Made by a program: the position numbers and the translations under genes
Notes under the pieces: generated by a model
What the model was told of the DNA's origin: nothing
Database searches by the model: none
Seen by the model: only the letters and a program-made list of their open reading frames with translations
DNA from: Desulforhabdus amnigena
GTDB taxonomy: Bacteria; Desulfobacterota; Syntrophobacteria; Syntrophobacterales; Syntrophobacteraceae
Assembly (NCBI RefSeq): GCF_027925305.1
Contig: NZ_BSDR01000001.1
Coordinates: forward strand, 1,143,001 to 1,207,000
Reading direction: 5' to 3'
Length of the DNA: 64,000 nt
Shown: positions 53,986 through 63,810 of the stretch, in pieces
How the letters are laid out: every line of letters begins with the position of its first letter
How positions within the stretch are numbered: position 1 is the first letter of the stretch

Positions 53986-55113
53986 GTGAAAGGAAAACGA
54001 TTGAAAAAAGGCGGTTCGTTACCCATTCCTGATATGGAGGGAGCGGAGGATCATCTTGAAGTCGGCTCGCTCCCGAGCAAGTCCCTCCCCGGCATGTGCA
54101 ACGGGCAAGATGTTGTTCAGATTGCAAGGGAGGTTCTTCGCATTGAAGCGGAGGGCATCCTTCATCTTTTGGAGCACTTCGATGAAAAGTTCGCCCTGGC
54201 CGTGCAGTGGATTTATGAAGCACGCGGCCGGGTCATTGTAACGGGGATCGGCAAGTCGGGTATCGTGGGCCGCAAGATTGTCGCCACACTGAGCAGCACC
54301 GGTACCCCCGCTCTCTTCATCCATCCCGTGGAAGCCATGCACGGGGATCTCGGAATGGTGCGTGCTGAAGACATTGTGCTGGCCCTTTCCAACAGCGGAG
54401 AAACCGACGAGCTGAATATCATTCTTCCCAGCCTTCGAAACATTGGAACGCGGGTGATCGCTTTCACCGGCAACCTTTCTTCAACGCTCGCCGGATACAG
54501 CGATCTTGCCATTTATACGGGCGTTCTCCGTGAAGCCTGCCCCCTGGGGCTGGCGCCAACGGCAAGCACAACGGCTCAACTCGCCATGGGCGATGCCTTG
54601 GCGGTCGCTCTCATCCGGGTTCGCAACTTTCAGGTTCAGGATTTTCGCCGCTTCCATCCGGGTGGTCATCTCGGGGAGCGCCTTCAGGTCCCCCTCTATG
54701 AAGTCATGCGCCAGGGGGGTGAAATCCCCATGGTACGCGAAACGGCCCATGTTCCCGAAGCGCTGAGGGAAATGAGCGACAAAGGACTCGGGGCGACCCT
54801 CATTGTAAGCAGCACGGGCAAACTCCTGGGAATTTTCACTGATGGTGATCTACGCCGAAGCCTCAACACATACACTGATCTCAGCAAAAAAACGATTCAA
54901 GAGATCATGACCCCCAACCCCCGATCCATTTCGGCAGATCATTCCGTGGCGGATGCGCTGGAAATGATGGAACAGCATCTAATCACCGTCATGCCTGTCG
55001 TAGACTCCGAAGGGGGTCTGCAGGGGATCCTGCATTTGCACGATCTCCTTGGAAAAGGCAGAATTCGTTTCACGCGGCAGTCGGAACAACGAGGAAATGC
55101 TGAAGTCCTTTAA
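53986..55113 (+). CDS. kdsD: Arabinose-5-phosphate isomerase (SIS-CBS-CBS)
   Basis: KdsD/KpsF interconverts ribulose-5-phosphate and arabinose-5-phosphate, the first step to Kdo. A SIS domain (TGIGKSGIVGRKIVATLSSTGTPALFIHPVEAMHGDLGMV ... ALSNSGETDEL ... CPLGLAPTASTTAQLAMGDALAVAL) is followed by two CBS domains (EIPMVRETAHVPEALREMSDKGLGATLIV; IMTPNPRSISADHSVADALEMMEQHLITVMPVVDSEGGLQGILHLHDLL). The frame begins with GTG at 53986 and gives 375 residues, about 45 more than the E. coli enzyme; ATGs at 54034 and 54094 would shorten it to 359 or 339 residues, and homology begins only near residue 37, so the start is uncertain. Confidence 0.92.
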   Translation: MKGKRLKKGGSLPIPDMEGAEDHLEVGSLPSKSLPGMCNGQDVVQIAREVLRIEAEGILHLLEHFDEKFALAVQWIYEARGRVIVTGIGKSGIVGRKIVATLSSTGTPALFIHPVEAMHGDLGMVRAEDIVLALSNSGETDELNIILPSLRNIGTRVIAFTGNLSSTLAGYSDLAIYTGVLREACPLGLAPTASTTAQLAMGDALAVALIRVRNFQVQDFRRFHPGGHLGERLQVPLYEVMRQGGEIPMVRETAHVPEALREMSDKGLGATLIVSSTGKLLGIFTDGDLRRSLNTYTDLSKKTIQEIMTPNPRSISADHSVADALEMMEQHLITVMPVVDSEGGLQGILHLHDLLGKGRIRFTRQSEQRGNAEVL

Positions 55114-55643
55114 AGCAAAAGGACACAAACAATCAATCTTTCCTATTTTCGCGTCTCTCCCTTGCATCCACTTTGCAAACGAAATATGAAGAAAAAAGCC
55201 TCTCATCCCCTCATCAACCCTCAGAAGAATAAATTTACCCATAAGGGCTCAACTATTTACAATCACCTGCCGATTGTTATCGTGGCTGACCTGTCTCTCT
55301 CCCCTGACCGGCACACGGAATGCCGCAGGTGAAGGCAATCACCATGGACCTCGAGGAAGGCAGACAAATGTTCTGTCAGAACCTTGGAGTCCAACATGCA
55401 ATGGTTATTGAATTCATGCAGAACTTTTTTAAAACAGTCCCCCTTCAAAGGGGGACTGAAGGGGATATTTTTCGAGCTTTACCCTCCCTGCCACCATCGA
55501 GGGGGAAATCAATTTAAGTAGTTTGTTTTGTTAAAAAATTTTGTCCGGGTGCTTAATTGAAGATTGGTCATAATTGGAATAGGTGAATAAGCCGACCGAT
55601 TCACCCATTCAGCAATCTTGGTGCTTCGCAGTAGAACGACCTC
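55114..55643. other. Intergenic region between kdsD and the hybrid kinase gene
   Basis: About 530 bases with no recognisable gene. A 24-base perfect palindrome-like hairpin at 55435-55458 belongs to a C-run/G-run repeat. Just before the kinase start there is little ribosome binding sequence and an AT-rich stretch (55518-55590) that could hold its promoter, not resolved. Confidence 0.4.
55435..55510. repeat. C-run/G-run repeat fragment with perfect hairpin
   Basis: The bases cagtccccctt-ca-aagggggactg (55435-55458) form an 11-bp perfect hairpin, followed by gaaggggat and, to 55510, accctccctg...atcgagggggaaatc. This resembles the inner core of the elements at 12894, 17145 and 48991 without their terminal repeats, so it may be a decayed relative. 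Confidence 0.5.
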
Positions 55644-58600
55644 ATGAGACATACCTTTGAACGCACAAGGAACACACGTATCAAACTATGGATCCCCTTG
55701 CTGGCGGCGGCTGCGCTGCTGGCAGGGCTTGGCCGGTTCTGCGCCGAATGGCGCGCCGGGAATGCGGATGCCGATTTGCGTGCTCGACTGCTCCGGCAAG
55801 TGGTACAAATTTCCCGCGCCATCAACCCCGACCTGGCGAGAAAGCTCACCTTCACGGAGGCGGACAAAGGTTCACCGGCATATGAGCGCCTCCGCGAGCA
55901 GATGACCGCCTATGGGCGCTTGATTCCCCAGCGCGGCATCTACAGCATGGCCCTGCGCAATGGCGCCCTGCTCTTCGGGCCCGAGAACTACGCCGGTGAC
56001 GATCCCATGGCGAGCTCGCCGGGGACTGTACATCAGAAACCGGCACCGGAGAACTATGAGGTATTCGCCAAAGGCAAGCCGGTGACGATAGGACCTATGA
56101 CGGACGAATTCGGGACCTTCGTCTCGGCCCTGGCCCCCGTCTTCGACCCGCGCACCGGCGAGGTGCTCATGGTGGTCGGTATGGATATCCCGGCCGATGA
56201 CTGGCAGGCTGCCGTCAACGCTGCCCGCCGGGGCCCGGAGCTGATCACTTTTCTCATCCTTTTGCTGATTCTGCTCGTCGCGGGAGGCATCTACTGGCGC
56301 AACCGGCTTATCATGGCGCATGCTCTGCCGCTCAGGCACATGGAGACCGTTTTGATCGGCGTGCTCGGTCTCACCCTGACGGCCGTGACAACATGCCTGC
56401 TGCGCGAGGCGGAGCAACGGGAACAGGCGAGGATTTTTGTCGAATATAGCGATTCCAGGATGGAGGCGATTCAGAGCGTGTTCCGTGGAATCCGGGAGGA
56501 CCTTGCGTCCATCGCGCGTTTTTGCGAAGCCAGCCAACACATAGACAGACAGGAGTTCGCCACTTTCGCTGAGCCCCTGGCAAGGTCATCGACCGTCGAG
56601 GGATACCAATGGGTTGCTCTCGTGCCGGAGAAAGAGAGGGCGCGGTTCGAGGCCGAAGTCCAGAGCGAGGAGTTCGTGGATTTCCCGATCTGGGAAAAGA
56701 CGGCGCAGGGGGATCAGTGCCGGCCTTTGAGACGCACAGTCTACTTCCCTGTCCGTTATGTGGTGCCCTGGATCGATAACAAAAAGGATGTGGGATTTGA
56801 CATGGGGTCGGAACCGCTGCATCGGGCGGCGATCGATAAAGCCGTTGCCACGGGCCTGCCGACGGCTGTAAATCCCATCTCCATGCTCCCCGACGGCGTT
56901 GAAGGGCCCGGCATGCTCGTCATGCAGCCCGTTTTCGCCCAGGAGACTCACTCCGGCAAAGCTCGAAACGGTGCTGGACCGGGGCGGCCTCTTCGCGGTT
57001 TCGCCGCGGGGATTCTGCGTCTGCAAGACATTCTCAAAGTTGAGTTGACGCGGTTCGCCGCGGAAGTATCCTTCATGGATGTGTGCCTGTTGGACTTGAT
57101 GGGCCCGCAGGGGCCTACGCTTCTGGCCACTTACCCGTATGAACGCGCTAGCAACCGTCCTGCCATCGTGGACGAGGATTATCTCCACCGATCCCCTCTT
57201 ACCCAAATATTTCCAGTATTCGCGTTCGGCCGCGCATTCGCGCTTGTCTACCACCCGACTTCCGAGTTTTACGCCTTGCATCCCCTGAGGCAGGGCTGGA
57301 TGGGCGGATGTGCAGGACTGTTCATGACTATTGTACTCACATTGTTCGTCGGCTTCCTGCGCAATCGCCAGGCGTATCTGGAATCCCAGGTGAAGGCGCG
57401 CACCGCAGAGGTCGATGAGCGTGAAAAACAGTTCCGGGACCTGTTTGAAAACGCCTTAAGCGGTATAGCCCTCTGCGAGATCGTTCCAGACGAACACGGG
57501 AACCCCGTGGACTACATTTACCTTCATGCCAACGCGGCGTTTGAAAAGCACACTGGGCTGCGCGTTGCGGATATCCTGGGCAAACGGGCCACGCAGGTTC
57601 GCCCCGGCATCGAGAACACGGGCCTTCTCCAAATGTTTGGCAAAGTTGCCATGGGCGGAGAAGCCGTCGCTTTTGAACTGTTTCTTGAACCGGCGCAGCG
57701 CTACTACAGCATCAACGCGTATCCCATGGGTGAGGGCCGGTTTGCCTTTGTCCTTTTCAATATAACCGAGCGCAAACGGGCCGAAGAAGCTGTACTGGAA
57801 CTGGCGGGTCGCCTTCAGCATTACCTGTCTATCAGCCCGATTATCACCTACGCCCTCAAAATAGAGGGCGATGGCATACAGTCCACATGGGTTAGCGAAA
57901 ACATCCAGGAGATACTGGGGTATACAGTGGAAGAAGCTCTGGAGCCAGGCTGGTGGGCCATGCATCTGCATCCTGGAGACCGTGAAGAGGTTTTGAAAAA
58001 CACGACCCACTTGTTTGAAAAGGGAAACCTTACCCACGAATACCGTTTTCTTCGCAAGGACGGCAGCATACTCTGGATAAACGACCAACTTCAGATCACG
58101 AAGGATAATAGCGGTGACGCCAAGGAAGTTGTAGGCGCATGGACCGATATCACTGCACAAAAAGAGGCGGAAGCGGAGTTCAAGAAACTAGAGGCGCAGT
58201 TTCACCAAGCCCAGAAAATGGAGGCTGTAGGAAGGCTTGCAGGCGGTGTGGCCCACGACTTCAACAACATGCTCGGGGTGATCCAGGGATATACCGAATT
58301 GGCATTGATGGAACTGACCGGGCAAGACTCGGTCCGTAACCATCTGGAAGAAGTAATGTCCGCCGCGAACCGTTCTGCCGACCTTGTGCGCCATTTGCTG
58401 GCCTTCGCCCGCAGGCAAACGGTCAGCCCCGTGGTACTCAACCTGAACGACACTCTCTCGGGGATGCTCAAGATGTTCCGTCGGATTATTGGTGAGGACA
58501 TCGAACTGGCGTGGATACCGGGCCATGAACTCTGGGAAGTCAAGATCGATCCCTCCCAGATCGACCAGATCCTGGCCAACCTGGTGGTCAACGCCCGCGA

Positions 58601-59339
58601 TGCCATTGCCGGGGCGGGGAAAATCACCATCGAGACGGACAATGTGAAGCTCGATCCGGCTTATTGCGCCGTCCATGCGGAATGCATTCCCGGAGAGTAT
58701 GTGCGGCTGGCGGTGAGCGACGACGGCTGCGGCATGGAGAGGGAGATGCTGACCAAAATTTTCGAGCCCTTTTTCACCACCAAGGAACTGGGCAAGGGGA
58801 CCGGTTTGGGTCTTTCGACCGTGTTCGGAATCGTCAAGCAGAACGGCGGCTGCATCAACGTTTACAGCGAGCCCGAAAAAGGGACGACTTTCAAGATTTA
58901 CCTGCCCCGGTTCAAGGCCGGGCGCATTGATGCCGCGGTGGAAAGCGAGGCGGCAGCGCCGCATAGAGGCACGGAAACCGTGCTCCTCGTGGAGGACGAA
59001 AAGGCGATGCTGGAGCTCGCCAAGGAGATGCTCCAACGGCTGGGGTATGCGGTGCTTTGCGCCGGAACCCCGCAAACTGCGATGCGCCTCCTAGCCGGGG
59101 AATACTCGGGACCCGTTCATCTCCTGATCACGGACGTGGTGATGCCGGAAATGAATGGACGGGAATTGGCAAAGAAGCTCAAGCCGATTCAACCGAACAT
59201 GAAGGTTCTGTACATGTCGGGCTACACGGCCGATGTGATCGCCCACCGGGGCGTCCTGGAAAAAGGTGTGAACTTCATCCAGAAGCCATTTTCAATGAAG
59301 TCCCTGGCGGAAAAAGTCCGCAAGGCGCTGGAAGATTAG
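55644..59339 (+). CDS. CHASE-domain hybrid sensor histidine kinase
   Basis: A 1231-residue inner-membrane hybrid kinase. Predicted parts: membrane helix 1 (about 14-30), a periplasmic region (31-195), helices 2 and 3 (about 199-216 and 233-252), a CHASE-type periplasmic domain (about 265-545; VEGYQWVALVPEKERARFEAEVQ, and VMQPVF), helix 4 (about 552-572), PAS1 (about 592-715), PAS2 (about 725-850), HisKA with His871 (GGVAHDFNNMLGVIQGYTELAL), ATPase domain (NLVVNARDAI, FEPFFTTKELGKGTGLGLSTVFGIVKQNGG) and a C-terminal receiver (about 1110-1231) with Asp1164 (LLITDVVMPEMNG). The double extracytoplasmic sensing arrangement is notable. Its coding sequence looks more GC-rich than its neighbours (impression, not calculated). 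It precedes a receiver-GAF-PAS gene by 60 bases. Confidence 0.92.
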   Translation: MRHTFERTRNTRIKLWIPLLAAAALLAGLGRFCAEWRAGNADADLRARLLRQVVQISRAINPDLARKLTFTEADKGSPAYERLREQMTAYGRLIPQRGIYSMALRNGALLFGPENYAGDDPMASSPGTVHQKPAPENYEVFAKGKPVTIGPMTDEFGTFVSALAPVFDPRTGEVLMVVGMDIPADDWQAAVNAARRGPELITFLILLLILLVAGGIYWRNRLIMAHALPLRHMETVLIGVLGLTLTAVTTCLLREAEQREQARIFVEYSDSRMEAIQSVFRGIREDLASIARFCEASQHIDRQEFATFAEPLARSSTVEGYQWVALVPEKERARFEAEVQSEEFVDFPIWEKTAQGDQCRPLRRTVYFPVRYVVPWIDNKKDVGFDMGSEPLHRAAIDKAVATGLPTAVNPISMLPDGVEGPGMLVMQPVFAQETHSGKARNGAGPGRPLRGFAAGILRLQDILKVELTRFAAEVSFMDVCLLDLMGPQGPTLLATYPYERASNRPAIVDEDYLHRSPLTQIFPVFAFGRAFALVYHPTSEFYALHPLRQGWMGGCAGLFMTIVLTLFVGFLRNRQAYLESQVKARTAEVDEREKQFRDLFENALSGIALCEIVPDEHGNPVDYIYLHANAAFEKHTGLRVADILGKRATQVRPGIENTGLLQMFGKVAMGGEAVAFELFLEPAQRYYSINAYPMGEGRFAFVLFNITERKRAEEAVLELAGRLQHYLSISPIITYALKIEGDGIQSTWVSENIQEILGYTVEEALEPGWWAMHLHPGDREEVLKNTTHLFEKGNLTHEYRFLRKDGSILWINDQLQITKDNSGDAKEVVGAWTDITAQKEAEAEFKKLEAQFHQAQKMEAVGRLAGGVAHDFNNMLGVIQGYTELALMELTGQDSVRNHLEEVMSAANRSADLVRHLLAFARRQTVSPVVLNLNDTLSGMLKMFRRIIGEDIELAWIPGHELWEVKIDPSQIDQILANLVVNARDAIAGAGKITIETDNVKLDPAYCAVHAECIPGEYVRLAVSDDGCGMEREMLTKIFEPFFTTKELGKGTGLGLSTVFGIVKQNGGCINVYSEPEKGTTFKIYLPRFKAGRIDAAVESEAAAPHRGTETVLLVEDEKAMLELAKEMLQRLGYAVLCAGTPQTAMRLLAGEYSGPVHLLITDVVMPEMNGRELAKKLKPIQPNMKVLYMSGYTADVIAHRGVLEKGVNFIQKPFSMKSLAEKVRKALED

Positions 59340-59399: not shown

Positions 59400-60875
59400 A
59401 TGAACTCATCCGTCACACACATTCTCGTCGTGGACGACGAGGAAAAATACCGGAAAATGTTGCAGCTCATGCTCGAAAAGATTGGCTACAAATGTGAATT
59501 GGCTGCGAATGCATCTGAAGCCTTGGACAAGATCAGGAACACGGAATTCGATATGGTGATTTCCGACATAAGGATGCCGGGCAAGGATGGTATTGAATTG
59601 ATGCGAGAAGCTTTGAAGATATCCCCCGATCTCAAATTCATCATCATTACAGGCCATGCTGCCGATTACTCCTACAGCGACATCATTGCCGGTGGCGCCA
59701 CGGATTTCATCAGCAAGCCTTTTGAAATGGGAAAGCTCAAAGCAAAAATAGAGCGGATCGAAAGAGAGCGGAACATCTTGCAGCAGCTGCAGCAGGCCAA
59801 CGAAAAATTGTCTGAGGAAACAAGGGTCAGCACATTGTTTGCCGAACTCTCCAGGCAGCTCATCTCTTCCGATTCCATCGATGAGACCGGTCGGCTGGTG
59901 CTGGATTATGCCAAACGCCTGACGGAGAGTTCCATCGGCTACACGGGGTACATCGATCAGAAGACGGGATACCTGATGACTCCTTCCATGAGCGAAGAGG
60001 CGTACAAAGGATGCCGGGCGGGGGAAAAAGATTCCAACATTTTGAAACATTTCAAAAAATCAAGCGAATGCGTCTTGCAGGAAGGAAAAACCATCCTGGT
60101 GAATACCCCTCATGAAGCCCCCCACGCCACTGGTGTCTCTTCGGAAGATTTCTCCACCCACAGGTTTCTTTCGGCTCCGGCAATGCTGAATGGAAGGCTG
60201 CTGGGTCAGGTGGCCGTGGCCGATTCGAGACGAGACTATGAAGAAAGGGACCTCGCGATGATTGAACGGCTCGCCGCCCTTTATGCGCTGGCCATTCAAC
60301 GCATATCGTTGGAAAAGGAACTCAAGAAGACAACGGAATATCTCGAGGATGTATTTGACAACTCTGTTGCCGCCATTGGGATTGTCGACCGCCACGGACG
60401 GTCGGTAAAATGGAATAAATCCGCAACGGCCCTCTTTGGCTATACTCTCGATGAATTGAAAGAAAAGCGGGTTTTTGAACTCTACCCCGATAAGGATGCT
60501 CTTGAAGTGATGCTGACCCGCTTACGGCAAGAGGGGCACGTGAGCCGCTATGAAATCGACTTGAAGCGAAAAGACGGGACCATTGCCCCCTTTGAAGTGA
60601 GCATCAGCCTCCTGAAAGACGAAAGCAACATCACCACGGGCAGTCTTTGTGTGGCGATGGACCTGAGCGATTTAAAGAGAGCGATGAATGAAATCCGGAC
60701 GGCGAATGTTCTGCTCGAGAAGGAAATTTCCATGCGCAAACAAATCGAAGAGGAACTTCGCGAGGCTCGGGATCAGCTCGAAAAACTGCTGGAGGAGCGT
60801 ACGGCCAAACTTTTCATGGCTGGTGATATTCTGAAGCGCAGCATTGGCAGAATCAGGGACATTACCGAAGGATAA
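59400..60875 (+). CDS. Receiver-GAF-PAS protein without output domain
   Basis: A 491-residue cytoplasmic signalling protein. An N-terminal receiver (about 1-125) has DDEE at the acidic pocket, phospho-acceptor Asp56 (MVISDIRMPGKDG), and Lys in DFISKPF. A GAF-like domain (about 145-305; STLFAELSRQLISSDSIDETGRLVLDYA ... FLSAPAMLNGRLLGQVAVADSRRDYEERDLAMIERLAALYALAIQ) and a PAS domain (about 318-435) follow, ending in a long coiled coil (EEELREARDQLEKLLEERTAKLFMAGDIL) and a short tail. No kinase, cyclase or DNA-binding domain is present. The strong AAGGAG precedes the ATG. It likely receives phosphate from the upstream hybrid kinase and acts through its coiled coil on a partner, possibly the coiled-coil proteins downstream. 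Confidence 0.85.
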   Translation: MNSSVTHILVVDDEEKYRKMLQLMLEKIGYKCELAANASEALDKIRNTEFDMVISDIRMPGKDGIELMREALKISPDLKFIIITGHAADYSYSDIIAGGATDFISKPFEMGKLKAKIERIERERNILQQLQQANEKLSEETRVSTLFAELSRQLISSDSIDETGRLVLDYAKRLTESSIGYTGYIDQKTGYLMTPSMSEEAYKGCRAGEKDSNILKHFKKSSECVLQEGKTILVNTPHEAPHATGVSSEDFSTHRFLSAPAMLNGRLLGQVAVADSRRDYEERDLAMIERLAALYALAIQRISLEKELKKTTEYLEDVFDNSVAAIGIVDRHGRSVKWNKSATALFGYTLDELKEKRVFELYPDKDALEVMLTRLRQEGHVSRYEIDLKRKDGTIAPFEVSISLLKDESNITTGSLCVAMDLSDLKRAMNEIRTANVLLEKEISMRKQIEEELREARDQLEKLLEERTAKLFMAGDILKRSIGRIRDITEG

Positions 60876-60997: not shown

Positions 60998-62563
60998 ATG
61001 GCGGAAAAGCGGAAGCTGAGATGGTTCGATCATCTCATAAAGCGATGGCGCGGGGCGGAACTACCGGTTGAAACAGCCCGGCAGCAAATCAAAAAGCCAT
61101 CCTCGGCAGAAGCAAAAAATAGTTCCGACATGCTCACGGCGTCTCCTGATGTTGTCTCGCCCAAGACTTCAGCGATTGCGGAAAAGCTTACTAAACTCAA
61201 GAACGCCCTCGAATTTGAACCTGAAGTGATCACCCGCCTCGAAGAAGTACATTCTTCCCAGGAACTGCTCCTGTATATGCATGAGGTTTTACTCTTCAAG
61301 TTTCTCGGCATACGGGAGACCGGTCTCCTAAGTCAGGCATCCTCTCAAGCGATCGATACGCTCAAGACAAAACTGAATGCCATGCTGGCAAATCCAGAGC
61401 CTTCCGAATCCGAAGGGAAAAGCCTGGATGCCAAGAAACTTTTCAATGAGAACAAAAACTTGAAAAAACAAATTCAAGCCCTCCATTCCCGGTATGTGAA
61501 GAGCGGCGTTATCTCCGAGAGGGAGTTGGAGCTCGAACAGGAATGTGATTACTTGAAAAAGCGCGTAGCGCAGTTCAAGTCGTATTTGCAGGCTTACAAA
61601 AAGAGCAGGGAGCAGCTGGCGGCGGCACAGGAAAAAATCCGGAGCTTGTGGGCAAAAAATAGCCTCCTCACGTCCAAGGTGGAACACCAGAGAGGGTTGC
61701 TGGCGTCCATTACCGCAAACCAACCCGAACAACAGGAATTCATCTCGAAGATCAAAACGCTCGACGATGAAAACGAACAGCTAAAAGCGGCCATTGAAAG
61801 ACAATCCAGCCTGCTCGACAAATTCTACGAGCAACTTCAGGACGATTCACCTGCCAAGGGGTTGGTCAAGGGATTGATGGATGAGCGCGTGCGCCTGATG
61901 AACGAGCTGAACGATAACGTGTCCCGGCTGGAAGTCCTGGAAATGGAAAGACCCCCGAAGAGCCTGCAGGAAAGTTATGAAACATTGGAGGATGAAAACA
62001 TTCATTTGAAGAGCCTTGTCGCGGCGAAGGGGTCTGTTTCTGAATGGATGGAAGCGGGGAATCCGGGTGCGTCCGATCAGAAAGCGCTCACCGAGCTTTT
62101 GAAGAAGGAAAACGAAGAATTGAAACATCTGTTGCGGGTCAAGAAAGAACAGGTCAAAGTCCTTTCCACAAGCACCTCCAATCGTCCTATGATGAGGGTG
62201 ATCATGAAGCTGAAGGGGGAAAATGCGCAGTTGAAGAAGGAGAGCGGATACAAGGATGAAATCGTACGCCGCCTTGAACAGGAACGGGACGAACTCAAGG
62301 GGCAGATTTCCGACAGTGCGGCATTGGCCCGGCACGCAAGGCAAATGAAAACCGAGCTGGAATATTTTCAAAAGCTTGTCAATTCCCTTAGACCGTTAGA
62401 AGTTCAATACAAGTCCCTGAAAAAGGAATACTCGGCTGTTTCCAGCAAATATGAAGCCCTGCTTGTTGAAAACCGCGAGGTGAACCAGAAGCTGAACAGG
62501 CTGCGTGCTGAACACACCCTCCTGATCAACGAATATGAGAACCTTTTTGGTAAGTCTCTATGA
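60998..62563 (+). CDS. Coiled-coil protein of unknown function, paralogue 1
   Basis: A 521-residue protein with no membrane segment or signal peptide. The start is set at the ATG at 60998 behind GAGAGGG; an in-frame ATG at 60932 has weaker support. After a basic N-terminus (MAEKRKLRWFDHLIKRW) and a Pro/Ser-rich linker, most of the chain is predicted coiled coil rich in Glu, Lys, Leu and Gln. I do not recognise a family. It aligns along much of its length with the next gene product: LLTSKVEHQRGLLASI against LVSKIEHQARLIRSL, and SLQESYETLEDENIHLKSL against DLMESFERLSEENIRLHKM. Position after a hybrid kinase and a receiver protein suggests a structural output or scaffold role (inference). It overlaps the next gene by four bases. 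Confidence 0.75.
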   Translation: MAEKRKLRWFDHLIKRWRGAELPVETARQQIKKPSSAEAKNSSDMLTASPDVVSPKTSAIAEKLTKLKNALEFEPEVITRLEEVHSSQELLLYMHEVLLFKFLGIRETGLLSQASSQAIDTLKTKLNAMLANPEPSESEGKSLDAKKLFNENKNLKKQIQALHSRYVKSGVISERELELEQECDYLKKRVAQFKSYLQAYKKSREQLAAAQEKIRSLWAKNSLLTSKVEHQRGLLASITANQPEQQEFISKIKTLDDENEQLKAAIERQSSLLDKFYEQLQDDSPAKGLVKGLMDERVRLMNELNDNVSRLEVLEMERPPKSLQESYETLEDENIHLKSLVAAKGSVSEWMEAGNPGASDQKALTELLKKENEELKHLLRVKKEQVKVLSTSTSNRPMMRVIMKLKGENAQLKKESGYKDEIVRRLEQERDELKGQISDSAALARHARQMKTELEYFQKLVNSLRPLEVQYKSLKKEYSAVSSKYEALLVENREVNQKLNRLRAEHTLLINEYENLFGKSL

Positions 62564-63810
62564 GAATGACTATGTTCAATAAGGAAAACAAGAAGTTGAT
62601 TTCCAGGTTGGTGAATCTTCTGGAACGTTGTTTCTTTAGCGATGGAAGCCCCCGCAAAATCAAGGAAGGTTGCCCGGAAGTACAAGACCTTCGTAACCAA
62701 AACGACGAACTGAATGAGCGGATAGAAAATTTACACACGAAGTACATGCAGGCAAATCTGCAGCCCGATAGGGAACTTTCGTTCAAGACCGAAATCGGAC
62801 TTCTTAAAGAGAAGCTCAGAGAAGCAAGATTGAAATTAGCCCTGACTGAAAAGAAACTGAAAGTTTTGATGCCTTATCAGGAAATGGTTCAAAGTCTGAA
62901 ACTAAAGAACGGTTCACTCGTTTCAAAGATCGAGCACCAGGCCAGACTGATTCGATCATTAATAGAAAATGATTCAAAGCAGCAAAAGTTTCTTTCCACC
63001 ATAGAAAAGCTGGTCGAAGAGAACCGCAAACTCAAGACCGAGCTCCGACAGAAATCCCAATTGCTCGGCCAACTCCAGAAATATCTCCCGCCCACTTCTT
63101 TGGATGTCGTCCAGAAACTGGTTGAAAAAAACGCACGTCTTCATGCTTTCATCGAAGAAAAAGATGCCCAACTGGAAGGCATGATAACTCCTGCCGACTG
63201 TGAAAACGACCTGATGGAGTCTTTTGAGAGACTGAGCGAAGAAAACATCCGCCTTCATAAAATGAAAGAAGCGAAGCAGTGCCTGGGTGACTTCATTGAG
63301 AAAAAGGGGAAAGGGGACCCAAACCAGGTCATTGAAGCTCTCAAGATGGAAAATCAACTTCTGGAACTCACGCACAACACCAGGGAAGAAGAAATCGAGT
63401 ACTTCGCTGCTGAACCTTCGCTTAGACCACTGATCAGAGCTCAGATAAAAAAAAGGAATGAATACAAGCAGATTTTCATGGAAAACCGGATCCAGGATCA
63501 GTTCTCTCGTTACCAGCAAGACGAGAAAAAGTGTCTTCAGGCACAAGCCCGCGAAAAAACGGCACTTATCAGAGAAAATCACGATCTGAAAGCGGAACTT
63601 GACACTCGTGAGAGGCGTTGGACTGATTTACTGAGAAGAGCCGAGTCACAATGTAAGGCTTTGAACAACGAGAAAAATCAAATCTGGTCCAAGTACCAGG
63701 ATGCACTCGCAGTTAACCATGACCTGCACTGGAAACTGACGGAAATGAGAAACGAGTATGATTCACTCAAAAGAGCGGTCGAAAAGGTTTTTATTCCTAC
63801 CCTGAAATGA
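62560..63810 (+). CDS. Coiled-coil protein of unknown function, paralogue 2
   Basis: A 416-residue coiled-coil protein, tandem paralogue of the preceding gene and translationally coupled to it (ATGA overlap). Shared blocks include RELSFKTEIGLLKEKL near residue 70, SKIEHQARLI near 120 and EENIRLHKMKEA near 230. It lacks the basic N-terminal extension of its paralogue and is shorter at the C-terminus. Codon use is less GC-rich than the kinase genes upstream (visual impression). No catalytic motif, membrane segment or known domain is visible. It is the last gene in the window; a third copy downstream cannot be excluded. Confidence 0.75.
   Translation: MRMTMFNKENKKLISRLVNLLERCFFSDGSPRKIKEGCPEVQDLRNQNDELNERIENLHTKYMQANLQPDRELSFKTEIGLLKEKLREARLKLALTEKKLKVLMPYQEMVQSLKLKNGSLVSKIEHQARLIRSLIENDSKQQKFLSTIEKLVEENRKLKTELRQKSQLLGQLQKYLPPTSLDVVQKLVEKNARLHAFIEEKDAQLEGMITPADCENDLMESFERLSEENIRLHKMKEAKQCLGDFIEKKGKGDPNQVIEALKMENQLLELTHNTREEEIEYFAAEPSLRPLIRAQIKKRNEYKQIFMENRIQDQFSRYQQDEKKCLQAQAREKTALIRENHDLKAELDTRERRWTDLLRRAESQCKALNNEKNQIWSKYQDALAVNHDLHWKLTEMRNEYDSLKRAVEKVFIPTLK

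Follow-up and report, generated by a model that had tools for sequence, protein, structure and literature searches.

In Desulforhabdus amnigena, a response regulator gene is followed by two genes for homologous, repeat-built coiled-coil proteins, here called CC1 and CC2. The conserved order of the receiver and coiled-coil genes, together with the matching tail of the receiver protein, suggests a rare switch by which a sensor controls a structural scaffold. The reading that is tentatively preferred here is a rare signalling-to-scaffold module, consisting of a kinase, a receiver protein with a helical tail and a membrane-associated zipper scaffold. The window, meaning the whole stretch of 64,000 nucleotides that was analysed, belongs to a genome assembled as a single 4.54-Mb contig. 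The features of the module are as follows.

55644-59339, forward strand: HK1, hybrid histidine kinase of 1231 aa with CHASE, two PAS, HisKA, HATPase and a C-terminal receiver (Pfam, above cut-off)
59400-60875, forward strand: response regulator of 491 aa, REC-GAF-PAS-tail (Pfam; Response_reg E = 1.6e-26)
60690-60872, forward strand: C-terminal helical tail of the regulator, LLxERTAKLxKAGEIMKRSIxxxxxI (kept in four loci)
60998-62563, forward strand: CC1, repeat and coiled-coil protein of 521 aa (ORF, BLASTP, shuffles, AF2)
61001-61054, forward strand: basic amphipathic helix at the N-terminus of CC1, residues 2-19 (AF2 helix 2-19, low confidence; moment P = 0.003 against shuffles)
61160-61381, forward strand: helical domain of CC1, residues 55-128 (AF2 helices; long family members only)
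61634-62314, forward strand: 38-residue zipper repeats of CC1, residues 213-439 (lag analysis, shuffles, repeat HMM, position composition)
62531-62548, forward strand: C-terminal motif EYENLF of CC1 (conserved in family members)
62560-63810, forward strand: CC2, 416 aa, a paralogue of CC1 that lacks the N-terminal domain (ORF, BLASTP, shuffles)
62581-62637, forward strand: N-terminal amphipathic segment of CC2, KENKKLISRLVNLLERCFF (moment P = 0.001 against shuffles)
62884-63555, forward strand: 38-residue repeats of CC2, residues 109-332 (repeat HMM, position composition)

An earlier reading of the sequence alone had described CC1 and CC2 as adjacent homologous genes with no known domain, and each of these points was confirmed. 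Both open reading frames occupy the spans listed above and share an ATGA overlap at 62560-62563, which likely reflects translational coupling. Their products align by BLASTP with 29% identity over 398 aa (E = 3e-42). Spurious alignment is common among coiled coils, and heptad-block shuffles, in which the coiled-coil composition is retained, were therefore used as a control. The alignment score of CC1 against CC2 was 447, compared to a shuffle mean of 83 (sd 12, maximum 126; z = 30), and z ranged from 17 to 56 for all ten pairs within five family members. CC1 and CC2 are homologues beyond coiled-coil bias. All Pfam and NCBIfam models fell below their curated cut-offs, and the weak matches were to generic coiled-coil models. 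Membership in a characterised family was rejected, as sequence searches of Pfam, NCBIfam, PHROGs, PADLOC and PDB returned generic coiled-coil matches only. Additionally, a Foldseek search with the weak AF2 model of CC1 gave no match at E <= 0.001. CC1 and CC2 represent a real and rare family for which no description was found, and a novel variant among coiled coils that are coupled to a receiver.

The same reading had called the two proteins mostly coiled coil. Extensive coiled coil is indeed present, but it is not uniform: it is segmented and built from a helical repeat of about 38 residues with the consensus I/V-x2-L-x2-E-N-x2-L-K, of which each protein has five clear copies and one degenerate copy. 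The units of CC1 begin at residues 213, 251, 289, 326 and 364, with the degenerate unit near 402. The best self-match lags of the family profile are 38, 75 and 113, and the lag-38 score was reached by none of 500 heptad-block shuffles. Over 30 units, Leu is found at position 5 in 28, Asn at position 9 in 26 and Leu at position 12 in 27, while Glu is frequent at position 8 and Lys at 13. In leave-one-unit-out scoring, most of the units, not all, outscored every off-register window.

When the heptad is set with a = 2 and d = 5, the repeat has Leu at d and Asn at 'a', the sequence pattern of a leucine zipper, and E8/K13' form an attractive g-e' pair. GCN4-type parallel dimeric zippers show the same three features. 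The shared a/d Leu pattern, Asn and charge pair make GCN4/bZIP zippers an analogy only: unlike them, the CC repeat occurs in five to six copies with linkers and has no DNA-binding region, and homology is not claimed. Judged from their sequences, CC1 and CC2 may be parallel dimers. The heptad-like periodicity of 3.45 was about twice the shuffle maximum. AF2 modelled CC1 as a monomer only and predicted, with low confidence (pLDDT 61, pTM 0.22), helices over residues 143-517 with short breaks. These breaks lie near 241, 282, 320, 356 and 394, one per repeat and every 37-41 residues, and the last is followed in this low-confidence model by a helix of 122 residues.

Outside the repeats, a hydrophobic, F/W-containing N-terminal stretch is found in all five family members (F/W in 13/200 against 53/2216, P = 0.002). 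In 14-residue windows the hydrophobic moment is significant alone in CC1 and CC2 only, and is weaker in the other three members. The N-terminal amphipathic helices probably tether CC1 and CC2 to the inner membrane. A domain like residues 55-128 of CC1 was seen only in the CC1/CC2 family among 395 genomes. An Hpt-like domain was considered at this place and rejected, the candidate histidine H95 being Asn in the homologue from genome G095. At the other end of the proteins, EYE(N/K)(L/I)F is present in 4 of the 5 members.

The CC family was found in 4 of about 500 Desulfobacterota genomes. Three are among 59 relatives, the source genome counted, and the same three are among 55 in the class; one more (G095), in a different family within the phylum, came from an even sample of 395. 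No member was found in an 85-genome class of the phylum or in the congener G001. Across 84,980 species, a pattern scan returned the loci of Desulfoferrobacter suflitae DRH4 and a Syntrophobacteraceae MAG only; as it was based on one peptide pattern and did not pick up G095, it gives no proof of absence elsewhere. The tandem pair is limited to the D. amnigena genome, with a single copy in each of the other three family-bearing genomes. A recent local duplication is not favoured as its origin, CC1 being nearer to Desulfoferrobacter (37-40%) than to CC2 (29%), but the tree is unresolved and has long branches. An obligate CC1-CC2 heterodimer found no support. The g-e' charges give no preference for this pairing (net pairs of +8 for CC1-CC1, -1 for CC1-CC2 and -2 for CC2-CC2) and are net repulsive in homodimers of CC2 and of the G095 homologue. 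Therefore, the ATGA overlap is the sole argument for a joint role of CC1 and CC2.

In all 4 loci, namely the window, D. suflitae (L003), the MAG (L004) and G095 (L021), a receiver gene lies directly upstream of the coiled-coil gene in the same orientation, with a gap of about 120 bp in the window. A kinase gene is immediately upstream of the receiver gene in 2 of the 4, the window and the MAG; it is absent in D. suflitae, and the G095 locus is at a contig end. As there are four loci only, selection for this linkage rests on few events. In D. suflitae, the receiver gene is preceded by a degraded PAS-like fragment (L003:1-342), which may be what is left of a lost sensor.

The receiver protein has the REC, GAF and PAS domains that had been ascribed to it, and its C-terminus is a long predicted helix. 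Pfam gave these three domains only, and no recognised output domain. The receiver itself is intact: D13, D56, T84 and K106 are invariant across the four homologues, and the fold, phospho-acceptor Asp, acidic pocket, Thr/Ser and Lys of a phosphorylatable receiver are all present. The middle of the protein differs by locus, with GAF-PAS in the window, PAS only in D. suflitae, and GAF only in the MAG and in G095. While GAF and PAS vary, the C-terminal helical tail of about 60 residues is well conserved in the four loci, and AF2 predicts it as one helix over residues 423-490.

The tail is also inherited together with the coiled-coil gene. A tail profile scored 104-110 bits in exactly three genomes of the class, the same three that carry a coiled-coil gene. 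No strong match was found in the 52 other genomes of the class, where the best score was 36.5 bits. Matches above 70 bits occurred in only 2 of the 395 genomes of the phylum sample, both family-bearing. The looser matches inspected in other genomes, at about the 36.5-bit level, were ordinary sensor-kinase linkers. The possibility that the tail is an extra repeat unit was rejected, since the repeat HMM gave only E >= 0.1 on receiver tails. A second tail-bearing PAS protein is present in G095 (L032:983-1628, G095:C586), with neither a receiver nor a coiled-coil neighbour, which counts against the module reading; a sigma54-type regulator adjoins it.

The sequence-only reading had proposed an undescribed signalling-to-structure module linked to signalling genes, perhaps a polar scaffold or a cytoskeletal filament under the control of phosphorylation. 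Such a module is still the best reading, because no characterised family was matched and because the linkage to the receiver gene is conserved in all four loci, with a tail that is co-inherited; the part that did not hold is the linkage to the CHASE kinase, which is not conserved. In the favoured mechanism, a sensor kinase, here probably HK1, would phosphorylate the receiver protein at Asp56. Phosphorylation would shift the dimer state of the receiver and expose or re-orient its conserved helical tail, which would then dock on CC1 and CC2 or let go of them. CC1 and CC2 would be parallel, in-register zipper-repeat dimers, tethered to the inner membrane via their N-terminal amphipathic helices, and would build a hinged scaffold. 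Phosphorylation by HK1, binding of the tail to the scaffold, parallel pairing, membrane attachment and higher-order assembly are all proposed from protein anatomy and gene linkage. It is rather doubtful that the module represents a new class of two-component output, in which an intact receiver without catalytic or DNA-binding output acts via its helical tail on a separately encoded membrane Asn-zipper scaffold and the sensor directly controls assembly.

The kinases bear on the main rival explanation, in which the coiled-coil proteins act upstream, recruiting and concentrating the kinase and receiver, for example at a membrane site, and thereby acting on signalling instead of being targeted by it. 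The domain order of HK1 by Pfam, CHASE-PAS-PAS-HisKA-HATPase-REC, agrees with its earlier description, and its orthologue stands alone in the congener G001 (62% over 1070 aa). That orthologue (L058:2885-6106, G001:C10) looks to contain a frameshift near its N-terminus, or else an assembly error. CC2 is immediately followed by a second hybrid histidine kinase (L008:4164-6806), which matches the kinase upstream of the MAG receiver gene with 32% identity over 779 aa, sensor region included; in the MAG locus, kinases are present on both sides. Several PAS proteins and kinases accompany the coiled coils, which speaks for an upstream scaffold, and there is a precedent in PodJ of Caulobacter, a coiled-coil scaffold of the histidine kinase PleC that relies on coiled coils to localise to the pole and binds the PAS domain of a kinase (PMC8980812). 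Against this, the linkage to kinases is inconsistent, and it is the receiver tail that is conserved and not PAS, one receiver protein lacking GAF and two lacking PAS. An upstream scaffold is therefore considered unlikely, although it is the strongest of the rivals.

Alternatively, CC1 and CC2 could be autonomous, intermediate-filament-like rods that self-assemble and are merely co-transcribed with a regulator. By a published definition, a rod domain has a coiled coil that exceeds 80 residues, whether unbroken or divided by short linkers, and there is no known functional domain (PMC2680258). CC1 and CC2 fit this definition in periodicity, in the predicted helices of CC1 with their short breaks and in having no domain above cut-off. 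However, the exact co-inheritance with the receiver tail and the adjacency in 4/4 loci argue for functional coupling, and the patchy distribution of the family is unlike that of a core cytoskeleton, which makes independent rods improbable.

The module lies in a block that was probably inserted. In G001, G006, G008 and G011, a gap of 34-95 bp separates a KdsD/KpsF-like gene from the M48 peptidase-TPR gene that comes after it. In D. amnigena the KdsD-like gene (53986-55113) and the M48 gene are about 12.4 kb apart, and the block between them (55114 to about 67546; L008:1-7547) contains HK1, the receiver protein, CC1, CC2, the second hybrid kinase and a TsaA-like gene; the KdsD/KpsF-like, M48 peptidase-TPR and TsaA-like names were read from translations. 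The junction is intact in D. suflitae, where the coiled-coil module is found at a different site. The simplest reading is that the block was gained as an accessory insertion. Neither an integrase nor a flanking repeat turned up at its edges, repeats having been sought within each edge separately. A perfect CCCCTTTGAAGGGG palindrome with stem lies near the left edge, at 55439-55465, and is the sole copy in the window. The block could instead be an accessory island with a different role, for example in defence or conflict, that carries these genes for a reason other than a scaffold. This would suit the insertion and the rarity of the family but is very unlikely, as the block showed no effector, nuclease or ATPase, the PADLOC matches (Lamassu LmuB and others) reflect generic coiled-coil or receiver similarity, and no CC relatives were found in plasmids or, with one peptide pattern, in viral contigs.

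To our knowledge, most response regulators that lack an output domain go without an explanation. The co-inheritance of a conserved tail with a repeat coiled-coil family allows a candidate partner to be named for such a protein. If the signalling-to-scaffold reading is true, the module would offer a compact and testable case, beyond those of Myxococcus and Caulobacter, in which a two-component system with an intact receiver governs a structural scaffold, and segmented rods would gain a new building block in the 38-residue Asn-zipper repeat.

Compared to known systems, the module resembles PodJ-PleC in that a coiled-coil protein has a genetic, and plausibly a physical, link to a two-component protein with PAS; PodJ targets the PAS domain of a kinase via a disordered region, whereas the conserved element here is the helical tail of the receiver protein. 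Proteins of the FilP and crescentin type share with CC1 and CC2 a segmented coiled-coil rod and no known domain, but differ in that CC1 and CC2 have a regular Asn-zipper repeat, a dedicated receiver partner and a narrow distribution. Pfam and NCBIfam models of FilP/crescentin-type families gave no match to CC1 or CC2 at E 0.1. FrzS and AglZ of Myxococcus xanthus are polar motility proteins that combine a receiver with a coiled coil, which in AglZ is described as filament-forming (PMC2680258, PMC1974792). The receiver of FrzS is atypical and without phosphorylation residues (PMC1974792), whereas these residues are kept in all four homologues here. By architecture, FrzS/AglZ and the D. amnigena module have in common a receiver coupled to an extensive coiled coil. 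The two parts are joined in one polypeptide in FrzS/AglZ and are encoded by separate genes in 4/4 loci here, where there is also a GAF/PAS insertion and the rod consists of a 38-residue repeat. Because of the split genes and the intact receiver, the module is not classed as FrzS/AglZ type; by analogy, it plausibly works like FrzS/AglZ.
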